From positions 1 to 28,647 of IMG/VR virus record IMGVR_UViG_3300034002_000019: a stretch of 28,647 nucleotides of DNA. One strand, given 5' to 3'. Source of the DNA: a virus. Below the pieces are notes generated by a model. It did no database searches. It was given only the letters and a program-made list of their open reading frames with translations, and was not told the origin of the DNA. Every line of letters starts with the position of its first letter. The first letter of the stretch is position 1. Of the stretch, positions 3,241-21,719 are shown piece after piece. The position numbers and the translations under genes were made by a program.

Positions 3241-3450
3241 ATGTTTTTCAGCAGCAGTGGAATTAAGGCGAGCACCATTCACACCAGCCTGACCGTCCTT
3301 TGGGCGCTGCTGGCAATACCGACGCTCCTTTGGTGGCGGGAGTCGGTGACGTGGGTGGCGTTGATGAGTTTGTGGGCGAACATCGGCTCGCATTGGGCGG
3401 CCAGAGAGGCCGCGAAGGCGAAGGAGAGCCAAGCGAAGGAGGTTTCCTAG
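3241..3450 (+). CDS. Small membrane protein, two transmembrane helices (holin-like)
   Basis: A 69-residue protein. The ATG at 3241 is preferred over the upstream in-frame start at 3154 because the latter adds a charged, non-helical segment. Two hydrophobic helices separated by a short charged turn are seen: about residues 14-27 (TSLTVLWALLAIPTLLWW) and 32-45 (TWVALMSLWANIGSHW). A charged tail (AREAAKAKESQAKE) follows. Size, two-helix topology and position at the head of a phage late region fit a holin or other small phage membrane protein, but there is no family signature and no endolysin next to it. No clear Shine-Dalgarno precedes the ATG. Confidence 0.55.
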   Translation: MFFSSSGIKASTIHTSLTVLWALLAIPTLLWWRESVTWVALMSLWANIGSHWAAREAAKAKESQAKEVS

Positions 3451-3458
3451 CACCTGTG

Positions 3459-4064
3459 ATGTCCCCGCTGACTTCCCCCACGCGCCGGGCCCCTTCCCGC
3501 GCGACTCCGCCGTCCTCAAAGAAGTGCGGCGGGCCGTGCGGGCGGAGGCTTCCCCCGGAGGCGTTCGGCGTTCGCAGGAAGAGCAAGGACGGCCGCTTCC
3601 CCCTCTGCAAGAAGTGCCGTAGTGAGACGCGCGGCTCGCAAAGTAAGGAAGGGCAGCAAGCCCGGGCGCTCGAAAAGGAGCTGTGGGTCATGCGGGAGGC
3701 TTACTCGGGCGTCCCCGCTCTGGCCGACATACTCAACCGCGCACTAGAGGAGGTGCGGCTGATAGCAGCACCCGGCGCGAAGTTCGGAGAGCAGGTGGCT
3801 ACCGTCCGCCGCGCGATATTGATAGAGGGGTGTCGGGGCGTGGAGGAAACAATGGAAGAGACGGGGCTGTCGCGGTGGGTCGTAGACCGCGCCCTGGAGA
3901 AGCTGGTCAGCGATGGCGTGCTCGAAACTCGCGACCGTTTCTGTCTGCCGGATGAGGCCGGCGAGCCCGGCCGCCCCGTCACCGAATACCACCCGACGGA
4001 CACGCCGCGGGGCGAGGTCTTCACCCACATCCTCGACCGCTCGCGCGACGACCATCTGCTCTGA
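3459..4064 (+). CDS. Zinc-ribbon plus winged-helix DNA-binding protein
   Basis: A 201-residue protein. The reading frame is open further upstream, but the ATG at 3459 (or GTG at 3456) starts just after the previous stop and before the first recognisable domain. Residues ~22-50 hold a two-pair cysteine motif (KKCGGPC, P-x2-F, then DGRFPLCKKC) like small zinc-ribbon domains. A helical linker follows. About residues 110-155 (VRRAILIEGCRGVEETMEE and LSRWVVDRALEKLVSDGVLE) read as a winged helix-turn-helix. This is probably a phage transcriptional regulator. It sits immediately upstream of the late operon and of the AT-rich motif at 4062-4082, so control of late genes is a reasonable guess. The same kind of zinc domain opens the HNH protein at 20266. 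Confidence 0.7.
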   Translation: MSPLTSPTRRAPSRATPPSSKKCGGPCGRRLPPEAFGVRRKSKDGRFPLCKKCRSETRGSQSKEGQQARALEKELWVMREAYSGVPALADILNRALEEVRLIAAPGAKFGEQVATVRRAILIEGCRGVEETMEETGLSRWVVDRALEKLVSDGVLETRDRFCLPDEAGEPGRPVTEYHPTDTPRGEVFTHILDRSRDDHLL

Positions 4065-17900: not shown

Positions 17901-18597
17901 CGGTATTGAGCAAGTCCCGCTCCTGATAAAGAACCTCGGCTCAAACATCAGGGGCGTCGAGACGCGGGCGGGTAGCACCGTTACAGAACTACAACGCGGC
18001 TTCGGTCAAGTCGGGGCAATGTTCAATCAATTGCTCTCCTTCCTCCCGAGCCTACTTCCCGCGACGCCGTCCTTTTTGAGCGGCTTGATTAACGCCGCCG
18101 TGGGCGCGTTCGCCGGGGAATTGGGCGGGGCACTCGCCCAGCGTGCGGGCGACGCTGACGAGGGTCCGTCACAGTCCAGACCGACGACGCGGCCGGTGCT
18201 AAAGCGACGGGACGGCGGGTTCATCCGAGGAGCGGGGACGGGCACGAGCGACTCCATCCTCGCGCGCCTGTCGAACGGCGAGTATGTAATCAGAGAGTGG
18301 GCCGTGCGGATGGTCGGGCCCGAAGTGCTCGACATCATCAACAGATTTGGGCGTGTGCCTATGGTAGACGCGCCGGCCTTCGCGTTAGGCGGGCCGGTAG
18401 GGTTTACGCTGTCCAACGTCGAGGCTCCCGACCCGTCACAGTTCGGGCTGAGCGAAGTTATCGCGCCGCGCGTGGAGAACCACTTCCACGGGGTCAAGGA
18501 TATGGCTTCATTCAAGCAGAGCGAGCAGGCCATCAAGCGCGACCTGTCGCGCGCGACTATGGACGGCATCCGCCGCGCCAAGAGTCGGCCGAGGTAG
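14905..18597 (+). CDS. Tail tape measure protein
   Basis: A 1230-residue protein, the longest gene here. Segments: an N-terminal helical part; a hydrophobic, alanine/glycine-rich stretch (~145-205, e.g. LAPVALAVGAALAVVVGVLA) as in other tape measures that insert into the membrane; a region ~230-460 typical of lambda gpH-like proteins (AFQTAIGPGLAAKLTLDEIR, VRAILEGTINEDARLAKVLG); a long coiled coil (~605-860); and a C-terminus with LKRRDGGFIRGAGTGTSDS and LSNGEYVIREWAVR, the 'GG-GTSDSI-L-NGE-V' signature of phage tape measures. By the usual ~1.5 angstrom per residue rule the tail would be near 180 nm. No clear Shine-Dalgarno precedes the ATG. Confidence 0.93.
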   Translation: MARTQQDILVKIKVLLEGLGNVRALAGHVKDLNAGGGQTAALAGNIDRLAGAVDRLADASAKTSKSRGGFVSFLVGVSAVVSTLANIPQAFQGVGKLLDLVDGLEGALDGLFGKVSGLFQRVGASVSSALSSVGSSLSGLVGGAGGGAGAALAGLGGALAGLAPVALAVGAALAVVVGVLAAAAAGFLSLAASVGVGAVALSFIAQRGLEVQRSLEQVRLGIAAIVTSLADVKVDGLPVEGAEKFRAAMAVSADQLKKLQVDAVNTVATFEQIAPAFQTAIGPGLAAKLTLDEIRGITVKVVQAASAIGLPLNQVSQEVRAILEGTINEDARLAKVLGISNEMVKSWKQQGKLAEELNKRLAGFAVAGVEAADTMDGLTSNLQEALNVFSAEATGRAFGALKGEFKRLLPQLFDFKSAGISAQFKGLTTLADEVLVRVVRIGGQVAQNIVSGLRQASAFVQQNRGQINGILNQVETMVGLLIRAVGVVAQIATSSATWGSTLSVVQTVLGLINVILALVLDQFRQMAPYLQLAILAANLLLASQPALAAAARVGAGGASGQEQTGLSSVRLNPDGSLKGGIDVVGAARAAGGGGGKGGGGRQSQVRELTQRLEEARIDTALARFQAKAERIKQDIEASVQAVRDGLEDSILSIGDAFRLEAALADKYLAAEKERLQGEIDAAKARRDLAVKGLDPKLTSEERRLAIAAEDEKLTEQTVRLEAERDRLTQETLNKKNAIVRAEALAREELARSIADIETQLGDLSPSSQTRIDALAAGIEDRFREVREKLEAEVRAGSKTAEEALENLKRLIGGLSDRAKFDVLAGGAGDKLNELRDLQELLDIGVSQGTIKSRDAAKRRLELEREYKRALLDTIAGLAEIARRTGDPELAARVRELQIEWAKLGHVIDETAKRIDDTLRSGLEDTLVSIITRTETVGEAFRKLAQTILAEIARIVAANLVEKIFGGLLNTGGGNSIGGILSGALGGGTKPSSNPKAPGSGIEQVPLLIKNLGSNIRGVETRAGSTVTELQRGFGQVGAMFNQLLSFLPSLLPATPSFLSGLINAAVGAFAGELGGALAQRAGDADEGPSQSRPTTRPVLKRRDGGFIRGAGTGTSDSILARLSNGEYVIREWAVRMVGPEVLDIINRFGRVPMVDAPAFALGGPVGFTLSNVEAPDPSQFGLSEVIAPRVENHFHGVKDMASFKQSEQAIKRDLSRATMDGIRRAKSRPR

Positions 18598-18601
18598 CTA
18601 C

Positions 18602-19273
18602 ATGGCATTTCACGAAATAGTCTTCCCCCTGAGCGTCGACCGCTGCCTCTCCGCGCACGAGTGGCTCACGACCATCATCGAGCTGGGCGACCAGTCGGAG
18701 CAGAGAATCCCGCAGGGCACGGACGGGCGGCGGAAGTTCAACGCGTCTCTGGGTGTCCGTTCTCTTGTGGACTTAAAGGCGCTTCTCAAATTCCACGCCC
18801 TGCGCCACGGCGAGACCTACGGCTTCAAGGTGCGCGACCTCGTTGACTATACGGTCACGCGCGGAACCGAGGGCACGCTCCAGTATGTCTACAACGGCGT
18901 CACGGCGAGCTTCCAGTTACAGAAGATTTACTCCGACTCGGCGGCGACGTGGATTCGGGAGATTTATAAGCCCGAGCAGGGGAGCGTCAAGGTCTACCGC
19001 AACGGCACGCTCAGAACCGAGGGCACGCACTACAACATCAACTACGCGACGGGGGTTATCACCTTCACGGCCGGCAACATACCTACGGCCGGCAACGTCA
19101 TCGAGTGGGAGGGGCGCTTCTACGTGCCCGTTCGCTTCACCGTCAAGGAGATACCGGCGGCCGAGTTCGTCGCCACGATGGAAGAGGCGTCGGACGGCTC
19201 GGGGTGGGCGGTTAAGTCGGGGACGAGCGACCTGCCCGAGGTGGGCATGGTCGAAGTTCGTGACTACGTTTAG
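18602..19273 (+). CDS. Tail tip protein, DUF2460 family
   Basis: A 223-residue protein starting 4 nt after the tape measure stop. The opening (FHEIVFPLSVDRCLSAHEWL) and RKFNASLGVRSLVDLKALLKF, LRHGETYGFKVRDLVDYTV match the DUF2460 family of distal-tail proteins. The C-terminal part is beta-rich (VITFTAGNIP, IEWEGRFYVPVRFTVKEIP, FVATMEEASDGSGW). DUF2460, DUF2163, NlpC/P60 and a large tip protein in order also form the tail-tip set of many siphophages and of the Rhodobacter gene transfer agent. Here an unrelated cassette separates this gene from its DUF2163 partner. Its TAG stop overlaps the convergent HTH gene's TAA stop. Confidence 0.88.
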   Translation: MAFHEIVFPLSVDRCLSAHEWLTTIIELGDQSEQRIPQGTDGRRKFNASLGVRSLVDLKALLKFHALRHGETYGFKVRDLVDYTVTRGTEGTLQYVYNGVTASFQLQKIYSDSAATWIREIYKPEQGSVKVYRNGTLRTEGTHYNINYATGVITFTAGNIPTAGNVIEWEGRFYVPVRFTVKEIPAAEFVATMEEASDGSGWAVKSGTSDLPEVGMVEVRDYV

Positions 19274-19458
19274 GGTTTCTTAGCTTTGGCTGGCCTGCCG
19301 GGCTTACGCTCTTTGACAACCTTTAAGTCTTTCTCGTCTATCATGTGGACGTTTGCGAACTTCTCCGCTGGTAGTTGCCCCGATTGAATCAGAGCGTTGA
19401 CGCGCCTCACGCTTACGCCCAACCGCTCTGCCGCCTCTCTAGTGGTCAGCTTTCCCAT
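19270..19458 (-). CDS. Small excisionase/MerR-type HTH DNA-binding protein
   Basis: A 62-residue protein on the opposite strand to all phage structural genes. KLTTREAAERLGVSVRRVNA, then LIQSGQLPAEKFANVHMID, is the helix-turn-helix plus wing of the HTH_17/excisionase-like group. The basic tail KPGRPAKAKKP contains an AT-hook-like GRP. The ATG at 19458 has AAGGTGG just upstream; a GTG at 19464 within that site would add two residues. Its promoter lies in the inverted repeat 19476-19536, shared with the divergent gene at 19541, so it is probably an autoregulatory repressor of the cassette. Its stop overlaps the convergent DUF2460 stop by a few bases. Confidence 0.75.
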   Translation of the reverse strand: MGKLTTREAAERLGVSVRRVNALIQSGQLPAEKFANVHMIDEKDLKVVKERKPGRPAKAKKP

Positions 19459-19475
19459 GCCCACCTTATAGCAGA

Positions 19476-19536
19476 AAAACTATACCAGCGCAAGAATAAT
19501 TTAGTTGACAAACTATGCTTGCGCTGGTATAGTTTT
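19476..19536. promoter_or_regulatory. 19-bp perfect inverted-repeat operator between divergent genes
   Basis: AAAACTATACCAGCGCAAG (19476-19494) and its exact complement (19518-19536) flank 23 bp. Each arm contains a TATAGT -10 element, one for each direction. A dimeric protein bound to both arms would cover both promoters. The HTH protein encoded alongside is the obvious candidate. Confidence 0.85.
19505..19533 (+). promoter_or_regulatory. Strong sigma70 promoter of the cassette (rightward)
   Basis: TTGACA (19505-19510), exact consensus, and TATAGT (19528-19533), one mismatch, with the optimal 17-bp spacer. The expected start site is about 19540, with the ATG at 19541, so the message would be leaderless. 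On the other strand the left arm supplies TATAGT at 19484-19479 with only a weak -35 (CAACTA), so the leftward promoter is weaker. Confidence 0.78.
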
Positions 19537-19540
19537 CTAC

Positions 19541-19705
19541 ATGACAACCGCAGCAGCCGACGCCGAATACAAAAGCAACATCGGGCATGACTTCTCACTC
19601 GCGGACGCCTACGACCCCGAGTACTTGGACGAAGAGACGGAAGAGGGCGAGACGGCGGCGCGGCAGGAATTGAACCGGCGCATGAGCGATTGGTTCGGTA
19701 TGTAA
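19541..19705 (+). CDS. Small acidic protein, unknown function
   Basis: A 54-residue protein, strongly acidic in the middle (DPEYLDEETEEGE), with YKSNIGHDFSLADAY before and a C-terminal RMSDWFGM. It starts at the ATG directly at the predicted transcription start of a consensus promoter. An upstream TTG at 19505 in the same frame would lie inside the -35 element and is rejected. It is transcribed divergently from the HTH gene across a palindromic operator, an arrangement common to toxin-antitoxin, immunity and anti-defence genes. The acidic DNA-mimic-like composition is suggestive only. No family recognised. Confidence 0.6.
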   Translation: MTTAAADAEYKSNIGHDFSLADAYDPEYLDEETEEGETAARQELNRRMSDWFGM

Positions 19706-19712
19706 AACGGAA

Positions 19713-19745
19713 GCGAGCGGCGCGGTCGGAACCCCCGCCGCTCGC
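19713..19745 (+). other. Perfect 10-bp hairpin between cassette genes
   Basis: GCGAGCGGCG (19713-19722) pairs exactly with CGCCGCTCGC (19736-19745) around a 13-nt loop. There is no T run after it, so it is not a classic terminator. It may slow transcription or stabilise the upstream message, reducing expression of the 19784 gene relative to the small acidic protein. Confidence 0.55.
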
Positions 19746-19783
19746 ACAACACTCCACTCCAAAATCTTAGAAGGGAAAGCCAG

Positions 19784-20218
19784 ATGCCTAAGATTAACAC
19801 AAAGCAATCACAGTTGCAGCAACGTCTCGCGGAGTGCGAGCGCGGGGCGCGACTCATCAAGGGGCTCTTTGAAGCGGGCGACGATATACCCGACTTCATC
19901 ACGGACGCGGTGATGGACGCGCTCGACGCGGCGGCCGGGTTCACGGGGGTTGAGCATTTCGGTGAGACGGACTTCAACATGGACGGCCTCGCCAGCTTGC
20001 TCCTCGTCACACGCAACTTCGACCTGCGCCACTCGCACGAAGGTTTAGCCTTCCACGTCGCGGCCGTGCTAAATAACCCGAAGGTGCCCACGGACATCTA
20101 CAACACCTTGAGCGAGGGCGTCTCTGACCTTATCTCCGGCCCCGTTTCGGATTCGGCGCTGTCAATCGCGTTACACCTGCGGGCGCACGAAGCGAGAGAG
20201 GGGGCGAAGGTCGTCTAG
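19784..20218 (+). CDS. Hypothetical protein of the inserted cassette
   Basis: A 144-residue protein with AAGGGA as ribosome site 9 nt before the ATG. It looks mostly helical (LQQRLAECERGARLIKGLFE, ITDAVMDALDAAAGF, LASLLLVTRNFDLRHSHEGL). It has no catalytic motif or membrane segment that I can see. It lies between the small acidic gene and the HNH gene, not part of the conserved tail order, so it is probably accessory cargo. Function unknown. Confidence 0.68.
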   Translation: MPKINTKQSQLQQRLAECERGARLIKGLFEAGDDIPDFITDAVMDALDAAAGFTGVEHFGETDFNMDGLASLLLVTRNFDLRHSHEGLAFHVAAVLNNPKVPTDIYNTLSEGVSDLISGPVSDSALSIALHLRAHEAREGAKVV

Positions 20219-20265
20219 TGACAGGCCGCGCGGCGTCCCTCACGCGCCGCACCTTATAAGGTTAT

Positions 20266-20793
20266 ATGACAAACGAGACTAAAGTCTGTTCCAAGTGCGG
20301 TGAGGCCAAACCCCTTAATGCTTTTTATACCTACAAGAGTGGCAAGCGTGAGCGTGCATGTAAGTTATGCAGAAGAAATCCCCGCAAGCCTTGCCCGAAG
20401 TGCGGCGGAATCGAGAAGTTTAAGAACGGAGCATGTAAGCCCTGCGCCGAAGCCCCGGACGCGTACCGGCGACGGCGGCTCGAAACGGAGCGGCGTTATA
20501 ACAATAGCGAGAAGGGAGTCCGCAACGGGCGCGACAGGCGGCTCCGGTACTACTTCGGAATCACGCTTGCCGACTATGAAAGGATGTTTGAGGAACAAGG
20601 CGGCGTCTGCGCCATTTGTCGCAATCCAGAGGCTTCAAAGAAAATTTGTCTGAGCGTAGACCATGACCATGCGACAGGGAAAGTTCGCGGCCTTCTCTGT
20701 ATGAGGTGTAACACCGCGATTGAACGGATTGACAACGTGCCCGACTTTCTAAAAAACGCAGCGACTTACCTTGAAGTGAAGGACATAACCTGA
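20266..20793 (+). CDS. HNH nuclease, recombination endonuclease VII-like
   Basis: A 175-residue protein. The C-terminal half has a full endonuclease VII-type HNH: GGVCAICRN (C115, C118), LSVDHDHATGKVRGLLC (D132-H135) and CMRCN (C145, C148, N149). The N-terminal half has four more cysteine pairs (C8/C11, C32/C35, C43/C46, C57/C60), giving two zinc-ribbon-like units like the one in the 3459 protein. The active-site residues appear intact. T4 endonuclease VII resolves branched DNA, but many phage proteins of this family are free-standing homing endonucleases, and insertion inside a tail-gene string fits that. The stop shares an A with the next ATG (TGATG), so it is translationally coupled to the DUF2163 gene. 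Confidence 0.86.
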   Translation: MTNETKVCSKCGEAKPLNAFYTYKSGKRERACKLCRRNPRKPCPKCGGIEKFKNGACKPCAEAPDAYRRRRLETERRYNNSEKGVRNGRDRRLRYYFGITLADYERMFEEQGGVCAICRNPEASKKICLSVDHDHATGKVRGLLCMRCNTAIERIDNVPDFLKNAATYLEVKDIT

Positions 20794-21719
20794 TGCCCGA
20801 GACCGTCATCAACTACGTCGGACCCTACACCTCGGCGAGCCTTATAACCCACATCGGGACGGCGACGCCGACGACGGCCGTCTGCTGGAAGCTCAAACCC
20901 GACCCGGCCAGCCCCCTCTACGCTTCGGGGCTTGAGGTGCGCGCGACCTCGCACGACCGCCCGCTCGTCCTTCCCGGCCACGGCTCCGCGCCCTTCCTGC
21001 CGGGCGTCGCCGGCCTCCCCTCGACGATTGACACCGAGAGCGGCCACGAGTCCCCCGGCCTCCAGTATGCGACCGTCTTCAACTCGGCCGGCATCACGCG
21101 CGAATCGCTGGCGGCCGGCGACTGGGTGAAGGCTCGCGTCGAGATTTACACCGTGAACGTCGCCGCCTTGAACATGGGGCAGCTCGTCGAGTTCGCCGGC
21201 TTCTTAGGCAAAGCGGACGAAGAGGGCGAGGTGTGGACGGCGGAAGCGCGTCCACTGACGGCGGTAGCCCAGGCGCAGGTCGGGAGGCTTACGTCCGCGC
21301 GCTGCACCGTCAGGCGGCTCGGCGATGCGCGCTGTAAGGTCAACCTAAACGCCCCCGCCGTCGGAGACGGCGGTGCCATCCTCGTAAACGGCACTCTGAC
21401 GCAGGTCGTGAGCGTGACGCGCGTCCGGGCGGCCGCCCTGACCCAGACCGGCAATTACTTCGAGCTTATCAAGTTCACCTCGGGGCCGCTCTCGGGAAGG
21501 GAATACGAAGTCAGGGAGTACGACCCGACGAATAAAGAGTTCATCCTCCGCGACCCGATGCACCTGCTGCCGGCGGTCGGCAACACCTTCACCGCGACGA
21601 GGCGGTGTAACCGCGACCCGGCCGACTGCGTGCGCATCTACGCCAACATCATCAACAACCGGGGCTATCGCTTTATTACCAACGTCGAGCACGTCGGCAA
21701 GATTCAGAGGGCATCATGA
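20793..21719 (+). CDS. Tail tip/hub protein, DUF2163-BR0599 family
   Basis: A 308-residue protein. The N-terminal part (TTAVCWKLKPDPASPLYASG, then GLQYATVFNSAGITRESLAA, then DWVKARVEIYTVN) matches DUF2163. The C-terminal part carries the BR0599 pattern: LTSARCTVRRLGDARCKVN and CNRDPADCVRIYANIINNRGY, with four cysteines and the N-x-N-N-x-G-Y/F ending. In tail tips of this type the cysteines may bind an iron-sulphur cluster or other metal (as in related hub proteins); this is family knowledge, not shown here. It overlaps the HNH gene by one base and the NlpC gene by 4 nt. Confidence 0.88.
   Translation: MPETVINYVGPYTSASLITHIGTATPTTAVCWKLKPDPASPLYASGLEVRATSHDRPLVLPGHGSAPFLPGVAGLPSTIDTESGHESPGLQYATVFNSAGITRESLAAGDWVKARVEIYTVNVAALNMGQLVEFAGFLGKADEEGEVWTAEARPLTAVAQAQVGRLTSARCTVRRLGDARCKVNLNAPAVGDGGAILVNGTLTQVVSVTRVRAAALTQTGNYFELIKFTSGPLSGREYEVREYDPTNKEFILRDPMHLLPAVGNTFTATRRCNRDPADCVRIYANIINNRGYRFITNVEHVGKIQRAS

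Follow-up and report, generated by a model that had tools for sequence, protein, structure and literature searches.

The 28,647-base IMG/VR record IMGVR_UViG_3300034002_000019 (hereafter the window, meaning the whole stretch of DNA analyzed) is a fragment of a tailed phage in which a cassette of ~1.52 kb, at about positions 19270-20790, separates a distal-tail gene of the DUF2460 family from a DUF2163 hub gene. The cassette contains every part that an earlier note on this DNA had named: a divergent helix-turn-helix (HTH) gene, a 19-bp inverted repeat, a small acidic open reading frame (ORF) of 54 residues (acid54), a gene for a 144-residue protein (p144) and a nuclease gene. We regard it as somewhat probable that this cassette is an autoregulated moron, which combines the phage group's own control module with an Endonuclease VII (Endo VII)-type homing nuclease and carries cargo that acts early.

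To compare relatives with and without the cassette, we examined the DUF2460 gene in other phages. Relatives were found on seven viral contigs, with 80-85% identity in six (L002-L007), and in all six DUF2163 follows DUF2460 directly in an overlapping TGATG, giving empty sites; DUF2163 identity among relatives is 83-92%. A wider search extended the comparison to 30 loci, and the two genes are joined, or nearly so, in most of those where both are visible; in L096-L098 long tail-type genes intervene, with no regulator and no nuclease. The proposal that DUF2460 and DUF2163 are normally adjacent therefore holds, and because the two genes are joined in the six close and most distant relatives, the segment between them is an insertion, which has left both flanking genes intact. 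Among the DUF2460/DUF2163 loci compared, the cassette is seen in the window only; a DUF2460 profile matched no genome in genome_contigs (GTDB). The intervening genes of the distant group encode one or two long tail-type proteins, either placed between the two genes or fused in front of DUF2163 (L096 4606-6747; L098 3236-6042; L097 3405-5296). Two other distant relatives carry an in-frame insert of ~510 bp between the N- and C-terminal parts of the DUF2163 gene (L008 6672-8099; L079 4893-6440), which is an extra domain and not an intron-like gene.

Both edges of the cassette are tidy. The stop codons of DUF2460 (TAG) and of the HTH gene (TAA) overlap at its left end, and at its right end the stop of the nuclease gene shares TGATG with the start of DUF2163. 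An assembly chimera is unlikely because both junctions are in register. The last six nuclease codons (GAAGTGAAGGACATAACC, EVKDIT) resemble the DUF2460 3' end of relatives and fall past the point where most homologous nucleases stop aligning (residues 169-172, for those aligned over the core); these codons may be a small leftover or copy of the DUF2460 terminus. The GC content is 0.562 in the cassette versus 0.643 in the window, and at third codon positions (GC3) it is 0.635 for the HTH gene and 0.602 for the nuclease gene versus 0.83-0.88, with p144 closer at 0.80. Position between tail genes and composition both agree with the moron-like pattern described in the earlier note.

The regulator belongs to the HTH_17/excisionase family and scores above the curated cut-offs of PF12728 (36.9 over 27 bits) and TIGR01764 (34.1 over 28.8 bits). 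We favor the ATG at 19458 as its start, with AAGG before it; a GTG start would give 19270-19464. Homologues are present in four relatives, most strongly in G002 (61% identity) and G001 (52%), and also in G004 and G007, and in each of them it is the first gene on one side of a divergent pair located outside the tail genes. Opposite the G001 HTH gene is an operon for a 158-aa protein, an Endo VII-like protein (below the Pfam cut-off), a 222-aa protein, a p144 homologue and an S24-type protein, while in G004 a p144 homologue, apparently frame-shifted, stands directly opposite the HTH gene. A similar operon in G006 (158-aa homologue and S24-type protein) faces a different HTH-like gene, undetected by the HTH profile. 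A search with p144 as a single sequence gave no relative in viral_contigs, phages or genome_contigs, and a p144-family profile run against IMG/VR hit G001 and G004 only. These sequence comparisons reveal homology of the cassette HTH protein and p144 to the relatives' operons, and they suggest that the cassette is akin to the divergent, HTH-headed operon of the phage group itself and not simply foreign DNA. The content of this operon differs much among relatives whose tail proteins are 80-90% alike. At least one relative (G004) is probably temperate, since it encodes a tyrosine recombinase.

Other features of these divergent operons were recorded in passing. Peptidase-like proteins of S24 (LexA) type, ~100 aa long and lacking an HTH domain (L065 11650-11943, - strand; L071 14688-14996, + strand) could conceivably be part of a split repressor. 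In G004 the p144-like gene (L070 13638-14554, - strand) seems to be interrupted by a frameshift at a G run close to 13910, through sequencing error or decay, and a homologue of the HI1420-type addiction-module antidote (PF21716, 3.7e-20) is encoded near the same operon (L070 12524-13018, + strand). Otherwise unlike proteins encoded by divergent-operon genes of L065, L067 and L071 have a common basic N-terminus, MTTKKVQKRGASRKGKPAE or similar, which we interpret as modular shuffling of a common leader.

The arms of the inverted repeat are completely paired (19/19) and lie within a 27-nt repeat of 93%; first-order Markov shuffling of the window (30 replicates) gave no perfect repeat longer than 12 nt with a loop of up to 60 nt. 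The half-site GCGCTGGTATAGT occurs in both arms and nowhere else in the window. The rightward TTGACA-17-TATAGT is the sole sigma70-like match in 3 kb, with 0.7 expected by chance in shuffles; it is not significant alone, and its weight comes from the position of its -10 inside the right arm of the repeat. In G001 and G002 the corresponding half-site, GCGTTAKACTT, occurs three times and twice, respectively, in the examined contig pieces, always upstream of the HTH gene and with the outer pair inverted, and is absent elsewhere in those pieces. Each outer half-site contains a -10 in the window, G001 and G002; the quality of the -35 ranges from 6/6 for the window's rightward promoter down to 3/6 on the HTH side in the window and G002. 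Judged by these motifs, the operator is conserved between the cassette and the relatives' operons, and the sequence supports divergent promoters of the cassette's own with an operator, -10 elements lying in both arms; the earlier note had named one promoter and the operator. The recognition helix and the half-site vary together, RVNALI with GTATAGT (window and a further contig, L100, described below) and RVRQ with TTAKACTT (G001 and G002), a covariation that rests on four modules and is a pattern, not statistics. The ATG of acid54 lies 7 nt past the -10, and a start codon 7-8 nt behind the -10 is also found for the HTH genes of G001, G002 and L100; with such short distances, leaderless mRNAs are likely for all four genes. 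A 15-mer of the operator arm matched 56 loci in IMG/VR once each, which is about chance level by our estimate, and no HTH homologues were found in these 56 loci.

The repeat could instead act as an RNA hairpin of the late transcript, either a terminator or a processing site. It would fold into a strong stem bordered by runs of A and U (-33.6 kcal/mol over 75 nt). However, the spacing of the half-sites is 29 nt in the window versus 48-52 nt in G001 and G002, whose arms, ~11 nt long, make a poor hairpin yet fall on both -10 elements; a hairpin is therefore unlikely to be what these sites have in common. A terminator here would also cut off the downstream tail genes, and we consider this explanation very unlikely. 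Still less probable is that the excisionase-like HTH protein serves recombination and not transcription: it does match PHROG excisionases as well as TIGR01764, but the cassette has no integrase, the half-sites sit on promoters, and the homologues are promoter-proximal genes of a divergent pair.

The "HNH nuclease" of the earlier note is confirmed and can be assigned specifically to Endonuclease_7, of mobility type, with the DHHRN residues all present by motif match (C115-C118, DHDH132-135, R141, C145-C148-N149). We compared it by sequence with T4 Endo VII and Hpy99I, and C115-N149 satisfies the motif CX2-4C, DHDH, R, CX2C, N as described in PMC6083498. Its catalytic core is C-terminal, unlike that of T4 Endo VII, and the same as in F-CphI, a proven free-standing homing endonuclease with this core at its C-terminus (PMC6083498). 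Phage relatives at 36-39% identity are widespread; the window protein had no match in contigs G001-G007. Elsewhere in the window, a 254-aa protein (3300-4064) has a stretch like the Endo VII/Lar-type zinc-ribbon N-terminus (PHROG ~1e-4) without the nuclease core.

A second HTH-operator-HNH group lies at 2200-3500 of L100, a contig with tail-tube-like and tape-measure genes that represents an unrelated phage tail operon. The L100 HTH protein is 64% identical to that of the cassette; its gene lies between a small tail-operon ORF and the tape measure gene and is divergent from a broken HNH gene (frame-shifted and without a start codon), with a DUF3862 gene following on the - strand. No relatives of L100 were found for an empty-site comparison. 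This second pair within a tail operon, the F-CphI precedent, the wide distribution of nuclease relatives and the preservation of both flanking genes would all fit a purely selfish homing cassette, in which the nuclease spreads itself and its passengers, the HTH protein only silences, and the passengers are useless to the phage. We consider this unlikely: cleavage of the empty site is a prediction from sequence, the open frame of p144 is retained with its high GC3, and the homologue in G004 is kept although no such nuclease was detected there.

Neither acid54 nor p144 matches a PADLOC, NCBIfam, Pfam (above cut-off) or PHROG family, and no known anti-CRISPR was found among the cargo in these four collections, no dedicated anti-CRISPR library having been searched; a YgbB match of p144 (E 0.004) was under cut-off and was dropped. 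We take acid54 to be likely a real gene and also the weakest part of the cassette, because only its position behind the promoter supports it as a gene. The toxin-antitoxin function suggested in the earlier note is unlikely, since the HTH gene is divergent from the cargo and not co-operonic with it and no toxin-antitoxin family is matched above cut-off in Pfam, PADLOC or NCBIfam. An anti-defence or exclusion role is possible, and anti-defence, secondary immunity and selfishness all fit the cargo.

A more specific form of the autoregulated-moron reading is an anti-defence locus under control like that of anti-CRISPR-associated (Aca) repressors, with acid54 and/or p144 as inhibitors (e.g., DNA mimics) and the HTH protein as a functional analogue of those repressors. 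The usual place of aca genes is downstream, in one operon with the acr genes, whereas the cassette HTH gene is divergent. Inverted repeats inside the core promoter, as found here, are typical of acr-aca operons (PMC9410906). Both cargo proteins are acidic and group-specific, and the variable content of the HTH-headed operons also favors this view; on the other hand, the cargo has no PADLOC match, and acidity is limited to some members of the p144 family (the L065 homologue has an isoelectric point, pI, of 7.0). We hold this version to be possible but doubtful.

The cassette might also confer secondary immunity in the manner of P22 immI, with the HTH protein as Mnt, the first small ORF at the place of Arc, and p144 as an antirepressor that disables the main repressor of this phage or of its competitors. 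In P22, mnt, arc and ant form a repressor-controlled unit that is absent or variable in relatives and, like the cassette, is situated in the late operon (PMC2629481, PMC8022706). The layout is the same (tail operon, regulator gene, small ORF, effector), and S24 (LexA-type) domain proteins are encoded in the HTH-headed operons of G001 and G006. Even so, no cassette protein is similar to the Mnt, Arc or Ant families in Pfam, PHROGs and NCBIfam scans, acid54 is unlike a ribbon-helix-helix protein, and the lysogeny repressor of the window phage is not on the contig; we judge this explanation improbable.

Returning to the autoregulated moron, we propose that both divergent promoters are controlled by the HTH protein, which would bind the outward half-site covering the -10 of each and so repress its own gene as well as the acid54-p144-nuclease operon. 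When naked phage DNA enters the cell, the strong rightward promoter would fire at once, until HTH protein builds up and shuts it. An autorepressor over both -10 elements rather predicts transient expression, with a burst after DNA entry and low levels later, than the prophage expression suggested in the earlier note. Because no terminator-like site was found on the + strand in 18500-21500, the insertion would set a strong promoter before DUF2163 and the later tail genes; shut-off by the HTH protein would keep that promoter from driving them in the lysogen, and it may be through the repressor that the phage tolerates the insertion. The cassette would thus be a rearranged relative of the HTH-headed accessory operon that has gained an Endo VII-type homing nuclease, which helps it spread, and that sits at the DUF2460 stop, where the nuclease ORF would take over translational coupling to DUF2163. 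The most likely role of p144, and possibly of acid54, would be early action against host defences or competing phages.

Several points weigh against this model. The window contig is a fragment, and a copy of the module in its usual place could lie beyond it; the likeness at the right junction is modest, as 13/18 nt is met by 19 of 28,629 window 18-mers, some of them maybe DUF2460 itself; no homologue of acid54 was found; and the window HTH promoter is without a good -35 (best 3/6). The p144 family is weakly conserved, and its AlphaFold model is all helical with a mean pLDDT (predicted local distance difference test) of 52, so that the fold gives no hint. HTH binding, repression, timing, mobility and the role of the cargo we infer from sequence. 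The interpretation in the earlier note is partly supported, being right on anatomy and kind and unproven on function and prophage expression; its description of the cassette as self-contained stands as regards the predicted promoters and repressor gene, and does not as regards its end, where no + strand terminator was found and the nuclease and DUF2163 overlap.

The filled site, the empty sites and the related operon in relatives suggest that the group's own switch module has been reused as a regulated tail-operon moron; the cassette is a case of a familiar type of cargo, dissected in detail and unusual in its origin. If the control model is true, the half-site motif and HTH_17 genes would help to find accessory genes of this phage group that lack annotation and may serve in anti-defence, a purpose that inverted-repeat promoters have served for anti-CRISPRs. 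More speculatively, and in our view rather unlikely, an HTH_17 gene and its two-armed operator might form a mobile control cassette shielded by its repressor, moving between phage control regions and late operons in the company of Endo VII/HNH nucleases and exchangeable cargo, the repressor silencing the insertion so that it lands harmlessly in essential tail operons.

The features of the cassette and its flanks are collected in the table. The window also encodes a TniB/MuB-like AAA protein, small and large terminase, portal, tape measure and an NlpC/P60-like protein; an Rfam scan gave no match and a tRNA scan found none.

Features of the cassette and its flanking tail genes (window positions)
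Feature	Position	Strand	Basis
DUF2460 distal-tail gene, left flank	18602..19273	+	PF09343, 2.9e-38
HTH_17/excisionase-family regulator, 62 aa, basic, pI 10.5	19270..19458	-	PF12728, 4.6e-9; TIGR01764
Left operator half-site, outward; predicted extended -10 TGGTATAGT of HTH promoter inside	19476..19494	-	Repeat and motif search
Predicted promoter TTGACA-17-TATAGT, TG-extended -10	19505..19533	+	Sequence only
Right operator half-site, outward, over -10 of predicted rightward promoter	19518..19536	+	Repeat and motif search
acid54, 54-aa acidic ORF, pI 4.1, charge -10.4	19541..19705	+	Position right behind promoter
p144, 144-aa acidic, group-specific protein, charge -9.0	19784..20218	+	Homologues in HTH-headed operons of G001, G004
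Endonuclease VII-type nuclease, 175 aa, N-terminal CxxC pairs, C-terminal DHHRN core	20266..20793	+	PF02945, 2.5e-23
Right junction, last six nuclease codons (EVKDIT)	20773..20790	+	Resembles DUF2460 3' end of relatives (EVKDYT in L005, 13/18 nt), then TGATG
DUF2163/phiJL001 Gp84-type hub gene, right flank	20793..21719	+	PF09931, 5.3e-27

Among known systems, lambdoid morons resemble the cassette in inserting between genes that are adjacent in relatives, in lower GC and in having their own promoter, here a predicted one; the cassette differs in that no terminator was found, its last ORF overlaps the next tail gene, it has its own repressor and nuclease, and its regulator and p144 are related to the group's own operon. 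A terminator is usual in morons, not obligatory. The definition of a moron asks only for usually independent expression (PMC2629481). Like the P22 immI "ant moron" (mnt-arc-ant), the cassette is a predicted repressor-controlled unit in a late operon by tail genes and is optional among relatives; there is no sequence similarity between the two, and the cassette has an HTH_17 protein in place of ribbon-helix-helix repressors, plus a nuclease. It shares with acr-aca operons a small HTH protein, an inverted repeat within the core promoter and small group-specific cargo, and departs from them in its divergent HTH gene of the HTH_17/excisionase family and in a cargo with no known inhibitor. Like DHHRN (F-CphI-type) homing endonucleases, the window nuclease is a free-standing gene among phage genes with the full catalytic and zinc residues, although it travels with a regulator and cargo, has no intron, and its homing is predicted from sequence. 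Compared with the relatives' operons (G001, G002, G004, G006 and G007), which lie outside the tail genes, have more genes, continue from the HTH gene into further rightward genes and differ in half-site sequence and spacing, the cassette shares the divergent layout, an HTH protein homologous in four of them, p144-like genes in two, and, with G001 and G002, inverted half-sites that cover -10 elements.

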